DNA from: Candidatus Endomicrobium macrotermitis | GTDB taxonomy: Bacteria; Elusimicrobiota; Endomicrobiia; Endomicrobiales; Endomicrobiaceae | NCBI GenBank assembly: GCA_031271405.1 | Contig: JAISVT010000062.1 | Location: 1-52,676 of the forward strand | Length of the DNA stretch: 52,676 nt | Direction of reading: 5' to 3' | Shown here: one piece after another, positions 32,109-34,391 of the stretch | Layout: each line of letters starts with the position of its first letter | Position numbering within the stretch: the stretch's first letter is position 1 | Made by a program: the position numbers and the translations under genes | The notes under the pieces: generated by a model | Database searches by the model: none | Seen by the model: only the letters and a program-made list of their open reading frames with translations | What the model was told of the DNA's origin: nothing

Positions 32109-32759
32109 ATGAAAAAAATTATAATTTCTCCTTCCATTTTGTCAGCGGATTTTTCGGATTTAAGCAAAGATATTGCCGTTATCGAAGACGCGGGAGCGGA
32201 CTGGGTTCACATTGACGTTATGGACGGGCATTTTGTGCCCAATATAACGATAGGCCCCGCGGTAGTCAAATCTTTAAGAAAAACCACGAAGATGCCGTTT
32301 GACGTACATTTGATGATATCCGAACCGGAAAAATACTGGCGCGAATTTCAAAAAGCCGGAGCGGATCTCATAACTTTTCACAGCGAAGCCAAAACGGACA
32401 AAAAGAAACTTATAGAAGACATAAAAGCGTCGGGAATAAAAGCGGGGATTTCAATAAAACCCGCGACGCCGGTTTCCGAAATAGAGAATCTGCTGCCTTA
32501 TCTTGATTTGGTTTTGGTTATGACGGTAGAGCCGGGTTTCGGCGGACAGGCTTTTATGGAAAATATGCTCCCTAAAATTTCAGAACTCGGAAAACTTATA
32601 GACAATAATAAGTATAACTGCCTTATAGAAGTTGACGGCGGAATAAACGCGCAGACAGGCATGAAATGCGTTGAAGCCGGCGCGGACGTTTTGGTAAGCG
32701 GAAATTATATTTTTTCAGCCGCAAACCCCAAAGAAGCCCTCAAATCCCTTTGCAAATAA
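32109..32759 (+). CDS. rpe: Ribulose-phosphate 3-epimerase
   Basis: The 216-residue TIM-barrel protein interconverts ribulose 5-phosphate and xylulose 5-phosphate in the pentose phosphate pathway. Family motifs: SILSADF with the N-terminal Ser, VHIDVMDGHFVPN with metal-binding His and catalytic Asp, DVHLMI, MTVEPGFGGQAF, EVDGGIN with the second catalytic Asp, and a phosphate-binding VSGNYIF. The full length is present. GAGG precedes the ATG. It ends the plus-strand cluster that began with ilvD and converges on cls. Confidence 0.97.
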   Translation: MKKIIISPSILSADFSDLSKDIAVIEDAGADWVHIDVMDGHFVPNITIGPAVVKSLRKTTKMPFDVHLMISEPEKYWREFQKAGADLITFHSEAKTDKKKLIEDIKASGIKAGISIKPATPVSEIENLLPYLDLVLVMTVEPGFGGQAFMENMLPKISELGKLIDNNKYNCLIEVDGGINAQTGMKCVEAGADVLVSGNYIFSAANPKEALKSLCK

Positions 32760-32946
32760 TTGCCGTTGATTCGTAATTTAAAACGAAATTATCCCATTAT
32801 GAGCATTAGTAAAGTCCGTCATCCTGCGCGCAGCCGCAGGATCTGTAAATAACGGCTTTTCCATAGACCCTGCGATAGACTTCGTCTCCGCAGGGTGACA
32901 ACTGCCTGTCAGGGGATAATTCAGATTTAAAATTTGTAGTTGCCGT
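32760..32946. mobile_element. MITE-like structured element between rpe and cls
   Basis: TTGCCGT flanks the element directly at 32760-32766 and 32940-32946. Inside these are imperfect terminal inverted repeats ending in AATTATCCC (left, from about 32774) and GGGATAATT (right, to about 32935). The core holds two hairpins: ATCCTGCG/CGCAGGAT (32821-32842) and ACCCTGCG/CGCAGGGT (32867-32896), the latter with an inner AGAC-TTC-GTCT stem. GTCATCCTGCG and CGCAGGGTGAC also pair across the whole core. No ORF is present. The element fits almost exactly between the two stop codons and can also fold as a transcription barrier for both converging genes. The 7-bp direct repeat may be a target duplication or chance. 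Confidence 0.55.
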
Positions 32947-34391
32947 CAATAATACGGCGTTATCAAACGGCCGGCATTGTTTCTCAAACGCTTTAAAAGG
33001 GGCATACTTTTGCTTGCGGTTATATCGAAGTGTACGGCTTTTTTCTTTTTTTCTTCGGCAATTTCGGTAAGCTGCTTTGCCAAATCTTTGCTTATGATTT
33101 CCATATCGGCTTCAAAAAGCAGTTTGAAACTCCTCACATCCCAGTTGGAAGAACCGACTAAAATCTGTTCGTCGTCGGATATGAATATTTTGCTGTGGTC
33201 GAAAGGCGGCGGAGTCATGTATATTTTCACGCCCTTTTTTGCCAAACGCAAAAAGTTCGGTTCCATAGCCCAGTCCATTACCGGATGATCGCTTTTTTGA
33301 GGCACTATTATTTCGACGTCCACGCCTCTCATCGCCGCCATTTCGAGCGCGGTTATAATGTTGTTTTCGGGAAGAAAATAAGGCGTGACTATCAATATTT
33401 TTTTTGAAGCGAAATTTATTATGCCCTGCGTAAGAAGTTCTATTTTTCCGCTTTCTCCGTCCGGCCCGTCGGAAATAATTCTTGCCGGAACTCCTGTCCG
33501 CGTATCGTTTTGGTCAGGCGTAAAACTTGAACGGGAATGAAATTTCTTCTTTTTTACGAATTCCCAGTCGTCTTCAAAAACGTATTTTATTTGCTCCGCC
33601 ACGGGCCCTTCGGCTTTAAAAGTTATGTCGGTTATTCCTTTTTTTTTGTCGTTTTGCAAAACGTTTGCAAGAGCCAGGTTCATTCCTCCCAAAAACGCCG
33701 TCTGAGAATCTATAACCATGATTTTTCTGTGATTTCTTAAATTGAAAAGCGCGAAATCGGAAGGGATTTTAAAAGGCAGAAAAACGCCGTATTCCAGCCC
33801 TTTTATCGCGGAAAGTTTTTTTTCTATCGATTTTTTGAATATTGAGAACGTTCCCAAACCGTCTATCAAAACTTTTACGGCCGCGCCGCTGGATATCGCT
33901 GTTTTAAAGGCTTCTATAAGTTTATCGGTTTCGGAGTCAACGTCAAAAATATAACTTTCGACCAAAACTTCTTTCTTTGCGTTTTTTACGGCTTCAATCA
34001 TTTCAGGGTATGCCTGCGTCCCGTTTTGCAGCGGTTTGACCGAGTTTGCGAAAGTAAATTTCTGGGAGCAGACATTGTAGCCGTATTGCATAAATTTTTC
34101 GTAATGGGGGGAGATATTTTCAAGCAGAACTTCGGCTTCTTTTTTCAAATCTTCGGCGCGGGACTGATTTTTCTTTCTCAGCCTTGTCCCTTTTCTTTTG
34201 ACCCTGTTTATCCCGAAAAAAAGGTATAAAAGCGTGCCTATAAAAGGCGACAGAAAAACAAGCGCCAGCCAGCTTATCGAACTTTTGATATCGTCTTTAT
34301 ACATCAATATGTGTATCGCGCTTCCGGCCGACAGCGCAAAGTACGCAAAAGCTATTATAAACGAACCGAAACCGCCGAATATGTTTTCCAT
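32946..34391 (-). CDS. cls: Cardiolipin synthase
   Basis: The 481-residue length matches bacterial ClsA. Two N-terminal membrane helices (about residues 8-27 and 36-58) are followed by a cytoplasmic phospholipase-D region with two HKD motifs: HRKIMVID followed by GGMNL (about residue 225) and HSKIFISD followed by GSSNWD (about residue 400). It transfers a phosphatidyl group between two phosphatidylglycerol molecules. Both catalytic His-Lys-Asp sets are intact. It lies just downstream of cysK on the minus strand with a gap of 12 bases, so the two are probably cotranscribed, although the functions are unrelated. Confidence 0.94.
   Translation of the reverse strand: MENIFGGFGSFIIAFAYFALSAGSAIHILMYKDDIKSSISWLALVFLSPFIGTLLYLFFGINRVKRKGTRLRKKNQSRAEDLKKEAEVLLENISPHYEKFMQYGYNVCSQKFTFANSVKPLQNGTQAYPEMIEAVKNAKKEVLVESYIFDVDSETDKLIEAFKTAISSGAAVKVLIDGLGTFSIFKKSIEKKLSAIKGLEYGVFLPFKIPSDFALFNLRNHRKIMVIDSQTAFLGGMNLALANVLQNDKKKGITDITFKAEGPVAEQIKYVFEDDWEFVKKKKFHSRSSFTPDQNDTRTGVPARIISDGPDGESGKIELLTQGIINFASKKILIVTPYFLPENNIITALEMAAMRGVDVEIIVPQKSDHPVMDWAMEPNFLRLAKKGVKIYMTPPPFDHSKIFISDDEQILVGSSNWDVRSFKLLFEADMEIISKDLAKQLTEIAEEKKKKAVHFDITASKSMPLLKRLRNNAGRLITPYY

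Follow-up and report, generated by a model that had tools for sequence, protein, structure and literature searches.

The 141 bp at positions 32784 to 32924 of the window (the whole 52,676-nucleotide stretch of Candidatus Endomicrobium macrotermitis DNA analysed here) are very probably a non-autonomous MITE of the IS1595 group, whose ends would be recognised in trans and which carries a captured REP-like dimer as cargo. Its interior is REP-like and its ends are of the IS1595 type, which would make the element a chimaera. A sequence-only reading had called the region MITE-like and perhaps non-autonomous, in agreement with the many copies, the 8-bp duplications specific to each element, the empty syntenic sites and the intact IS1595-family element with matching ends reported below. 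The coordinates are collected in Table 1.

Table 1. The element, its parts, the flanking genes and the putative partner transposon. Positions refer to the window unless preceded by genome (G000, the own genome) and contig.
Feature	Position	Strand	Remarks
Probable MITE	32784-32924	+	141 bp; similarity between copies stops at these coordinates
Left terminal inverted repeat CGAAATTATCCC	32784-32795	+	family consensus CGGAATTATCCC
Right terminal inverted repeat	32913-32924	-	minus strand reads CTGAATTATCCC; forward-strand end GGGATAATTCAG
Target-site duplication, left copy ATTTAAAA	32776-32783	n/a	identical to right copy, 8/8
Target-site duplication, right copy ATTTAAAA	32925-32932	n/a	identical to left copy, 8/8
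CCGCAGG 7-bp direct repeat, first copy	32834-32840	+	junction of the element's short form
CCGCAGG 7-bp direct repeat, second copy	32888-32894	+	pairs with 32834-32840
Palindromic unit 1	32817-32845	+	CGTC tag 32817-32820; stem 32821-32828/32835-32842; 6-nt loop; tail CTG
Palindromic unit 2	32864-32900	-	TGTC tag 32897-32900; stem 32867-32874/32889-32896; 14-nt loop; tail CTA
rpe, ribulose-phosphate 3-epimerase	32109-32759	+	upstream flank; TIGR01163, PF00834
cls-like phospholipase D protein	32946-34391	-	converging flank of the MITE
Intact IS1595-family element (L072)	G000:C27:344-2107	n/a	1764 bp, single copy

The gap from rpe, whose stop is at 32759, to cls, whose stop codon occupies 32946-32948, measures 186 bp; the cls-like protein scored 287.1 bits with the cardiolipin synthase model TIGR04265, just below its cut-off of 290. 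The element lies 24 bp from the rpe stop and 21 bp from the cls stop, and the earlier statement that it exactly fills the gap was too strong. Within the gap, the ORF list of the window holds no frame that reaches 60 aa, as had been read before, and imperfect inverted repeats are present as then described (34 nt, 71%); the terminal inverted repeats of Table 1, CGAAATTATCCC and CTGAATTATCCC, match at 10/12. The two strong hairpins likewise hold up as perfect 8-bp stems. RNA folding of 32760-32946 gave z = -2.9, with 1 of 200 shuffles equally good, and DNA folding of 32784-32924 gave z = -4.8, with none of 200 shuffles equally good. The TTGCCGT direct repeats occur as stated (32760-32766 and 32940-32946), but they lie outside the ends shared between copies and were rejected as a target duplication, being at chance level for 7-mers: by our own arithmetic a 301-bp stretch is expected to hold about 3 pairs of identical 7-mers. 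For rpe and cls the element is probably a mere insertion near their 3' ends.

Copies of the element were sought in the own genome (1.887 Mb in 64 contigs) using the gap sequence as query. At least 55 matches were obtained at E<=10, with 40 of 67 candidates scored, and the matches listed include 11 copies of exactly 141 bp with pairwise identities of 92-97%, two older full-length copies (C50, 144 bp; C52:25653, 131 bp), a short form (four copies of 86-88 bp and a fifth of 77 bp) and fragmentary copies, of which L012, L014 and L017 are truncated examples. The copies stand at unrelated sites. No two of the 141-bp copies are identical, and the burst therefore was not very recent. The 86-88 bp copies lack the stretch equivalent to 32841-32887 and are joined at CCGCAGG, leaving one hybrid hairpin; since short copies occupy separate sites, three of them with perfect duplications of their own, the short form itself most likely moved too. 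The end pattern CNGAATTATCCC, allowing one mismatch, was matched 70 times forward and 42 times in reverse, compared with 9 and 9 for a control pattern. Lone matches to it at C17, C31, C21 and C5:1884 were rejected as transposon ends, the surrounding 140 bases holding no MITE sequence; the match at C54:23892 has the look of a left-end relic standing by itself. When genes were predicted with a rough hexamer model, 16 of 18 MITE copies proved to be intergenic, and the remaining two (L002 and L021) overlap ORFs whose starts were maybe called too far upstream.

We examined if the complete elements (13 long, 5 short and the intact IS; truncated and contig-end copies were excluded) are flanked by target-site duplications. 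The flanking 8-mers were perfect pairs for 8 of the 19 and differed by at most one mismatch for 13, the intact IS being included, and the remaining six had 2 or 3 mismatches. Random re-pairing of left and right 8-mers in 20,000 permutations gave means of 0.47 perfect pairs and 0.94 pairs with at most one mismatch, with maxima of 4 and 7; the flanking 8-mers are 95% AT, compared with 62% in the wider flanks, and AT-rich DNA raises chance matching, an excess for which the permutation allows. Perfect pairs were limited to k=8, none being found among the 19 elements at k=6, 7, 9 or 10. Duplications of 8 bp are usual for IS1595 elements (PMC8101967), and ISApl4 favours A/T-rich 8-mers (PMC12561309). 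The further copies with flanking direct repeats that the sequence-only reading proposed to look for are thus present in the own genome.

A profile search of the own genome with PF12762 gave one match (C27:809-1291), which lies within the single-copy intact element of Table 1. This IS is bounded by CGGAATTATCCC at C27:344 and by an inverted partner ending at C27:2107, the two ends matching each other at 23/28 positions, and it is flanked on both sides by the perfect 8-bp duplication TTTTTATT. Its 307-aa transposase scored above cut-off with PF12762 (112.1 bits), PF12760 (31 bits) and NF033547 (194.6 bits), and comprises an IS1595 DDE domain and a zinc-ribbon domain. Two further opposite-strand ORFs of 93 and 144 aa, to which no Pfam or NCBIfam model matched, are possible passenger genes. 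Related transposases were found in G015 (68% identity) and in an Endomicrobium MAG (63%), and just upstream of their genes stand like ends, CGGAACTATCCCTTGACAG in G015 (L117) and CGGAATTATCCCTTGACA in the MAG (L158); these hold the run CCCTTGACA, where the MITE right end, which also reads CTGAATTATCCCCTGACAGGCAGT, has CCCCTGACA. The intact IS shares its ends and its type of duplication with the MITE, and it is the likely source of the transposase. Within the genome only the ends of MITE and IS match, over about 12 bp, and the MITE interior has no similarity to the IS; a simple deleted IS was therefore rejected as a description of the MITE. Three elements, the intact IS (L072) and those at L026 (C58) and L079 (C38), are placed directly after GGAATCCATTTTT, a sequence that resembles a canonical CGTC-type REP tail, and the same 25-bp left flank precedes two of the three; for these reasons a REP may be a landing site for elements.

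Empty sites were sought by joining the flanks of 10 element sites and searching for the joined sequences in the related genome G003. Two of the ten, those made for L002 and L007, gave a match that covered their length and spanned the join, and both sites are without the element in G003. The L007 site is also without the element in G002, G004 and G015, with flank-to-flank distances of 184, 100 and 84 bp, respectively, and no end sequence in the gap. In G017 the flanks of this site are separated by a 1061-bp unrelated stretch (L169, G017:C212, about 439-1501), in which repeated GTCATTCCCATGAAAATGGGAATCCA forms a CGTC-type REP cluster. For the locus of the window itself, the alignment of the G002 cls side runs through the insertion point with a score of 37, compared with 25 or less for shuffles; this match is at most suggestive of an empty site, because scores up to 44 were obtained at other loci that have this AT-rich repeat. 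Adjacency of rpe and cls (cls within 1.5 kb of rpe) was found in 0 of 29 relatives examined, some of which have loci that break off early; the G003 locus extends just 159 bp past rpe. Repeats such as AATTACGAATTACAAATT, AT-rich and intergenic, occur at L007, L001, L163, L147 and L149 in G000, G002 and G003, and they seem to be MITE targets too. Searches of 60 genomes and of 95 genomes (each set including the own) yielded no full MITE other than those of the own genome, and the exact left-end pattern gave 0 stretches in a genome contig collection from which the own genome was possibly excluded. The empty sites in relatives for which the sequence-only reading proposed to look were accordingly found for L002 and L007, and a single copy conserved here in all relatives is clearly not what these genomes contain.

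The two palindromic units inside the element form a dimer with the tags outward, which was also found alone in the own genome and in G003. In the own genome the motif CGCAGRRTCTRTANA was counted 40 times (control 0), and 13 of 59 relatives also have it, the control giving one match overall. Many of the stretches read in G000 and G003 have the dimer layout, in which tag, stem, loop and stem are followed by a CTATAAATTTATAG-like link and the reversed stem, loop, stem and tag, with loops that vary; other stretches have a single unit only. A CGTC, TGTC or CCTC tag stands on 77 of 196 stem matches in the loci fetched (a number in which one palindrome may be read on both strands). Among the 77 tagged units the commonest loop lengths are 6 nt (43 units) and 14 nt (17 units), and the tails include CTA in 43, CTG in 10 and CCA in 6. 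The outer 3 bp are complementary in 50 of the 77, compared with a shuffled mean of 19.5 and maximum of 34, a count that is indicative only, as MITE copies and stand-alone units are pooled in it and overlapping loci may have been counted double.

In tag and stem length the inner dimer resembles the CGTC-tagged REPs (PMC3733652), which have an 8-9 bp stem with complementary AT at the first and second position. It shares with them the CGTC/TGTC tag, the dimers and stems of 8 bp, of which that of unit 1 starts AT and that of unit 2 AC; those of H. neapolitanus form dimers within palindromes, and some CGTC REPs lie inside longer palindromes, as here. The loop length and tail differ, being 4-5 nt and CCA in most of the published repeats whereas here they are 6 or 14 nt and CTG or CTA. 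A GGGATAATTCC end stands near a dimer at L040 (C208 of G032, another genus of the family), and this locus is a possible older relative of the MITE.

The copies, their ends and duplications, the empty sites, the intact transposon and the independent dimer are read directly from the sequences, and from them a putative course of mobilisation in trans, and of transposition itself, can be proposed. The DDE transposase encoded by the one intact IS1595-family element, or that of a lost relative, would recognise the approximately 12-bp ends of the MITE in trans, and the MITE would insert in AT-rich intergenic DNA with an 8-bp target duplication. A REP-like dimer that already existed throughout the lineage would have been caught between two IS1595-type ends, within the line of the own species, and would now ride as cargo; deletion between the two CCGCAGG repeats would have produced the shorter form. 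An old dimer that was later captured is the simplest order of events, since the relatives yielded no full MITE, the dimer is widespread and the interior is without IS1595 similarity.

The order could be the opposite, the hairpin dimer being a decayed MITE whose ends were lost, with no capture of a resident repeat. Truncated MITE copies do exist, small QMITE2 copies in Coxiella look like REP elements (PMC5896051), and the end near the dimer in G032 may represent an older relative there. We nevertheless consider decay unlikely, as the dimers in G000 and G003 come with other stems, loops and flanks, and the motif is spread over the 13 relatives whereas no full MITE turned up beyond the own genome in the 60 and the 95 genomes searched. 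Spread of a REP/BIME-type repeat by a mechanism of its own, such as a REP-associated tyrosine transposase, with the outer inverted repeats incidental, would account for the dimers that stand alone in the own and related genomes, and one Y1-type transposase gene is present (G000:C32:54459-54815, L198), whose translation we take to resemble IS200 TnpA. However, the 2.5-kb stretch of this gene is without such hairpins, and the outer ends and 8-bp duplications are common to the complete copies and the IS1595 element, whereas single-strand Y1 transposition is not known to produce a duplication. Such spread is already contradicted for the 141-bp unit, for which we regard it as highly improbable, and it may still apply to the stand-alone dimers.

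The sequence-only reading also allowed a fixed bidirectional terminator; the element would then be a transcription terminator or mRNA-end structure for rpe and cls that happens to be repetitive. It is strongly structured and lies between converging genes, no other terminator-like site was found in 32500-33200, and roles in transcription termination and mRNA stabilisation have been hypothesised for REPs (PMC3733652). A scan of 32500-33200, however, returned 0 intrinsic terminators, compared with 0.7 in shuffles, and no T run follows either stem; the 18 MITE copies have converging neighbour genes in 5 cases, diverging ones in 2 and co-directional ones in 11 (by the rough hexamer gene model), and the lack of rpe-cls adjacency in the relatives examined also argues against a fixed role. 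No Rfam RNA family matched the window at gathering score. We think it improbable that the element is such a terminator; the proposal bears on a secondary use and not on origin, and the MITE may end transcripts.

The IS1595-group MITE described here can be set beside three further known systems. A MITE of the IS1595 family in Haloquadratum walsbyi (165 bp, 7 copies; related to ISHwa6) likewise has inverted repeats and an 8-bp duplication (PMC3852290), but its host is archaeal, its inverted repeats are 25 bp long compared with about 12 bp here, and the available part of that account mentions no REP-like cargo. QMITE2 of Coxiella burnetii (150-190 bp, with direct repeats of 7-11 nt) is likewise a REP-containing MITE with inverted repeats and with full-size and small forms (PMC5896051); its REP is GTAG and not CGTC-like, and no autonomous IS1595 partner is named in the available text. 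ISApl4, of the IS1016 group of the IS1595 family (PMC12561309), shares the A/T-rich 8-bp duplications and a DDE transposase whose NGIE-FW block is also found in the C27 partner IS; it is, however, an autonomous IS of 712 bp from another group, whereas the partner IS has 1764 bp and a zinc-ribbon domain. The accessible portions of the open-access literature searched contained no description of an IS1595 MITE that holds a CGTC-like REP. MITEs of IS1595 type have been described before, as have MITEs with a REP in them, and their combination with a candidate transposase is a modest novelty.

The available text of PMC3733652 assigned no transposase to the CGTC REPs, suggested other transposases as possible movers and left the spread of these repeats open; the present element is a concrete, testable case, in which a transposase gene is at hand, the ends and the duplication are defined, and the element occurs naturally in two sizes, with one hairpin or two. 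We tentatively suggest that an IS1595 transposase made a multicopy mobile element of a resident CGTC-like REP dimer, for which no dedicated transposase was known, by moving it as cargo between borrowed DDE transposon ends, and that REPs of this kind may in general multiply in this way. The element can in addition serve to mark genome plasticity in a lineage that has been little studied.
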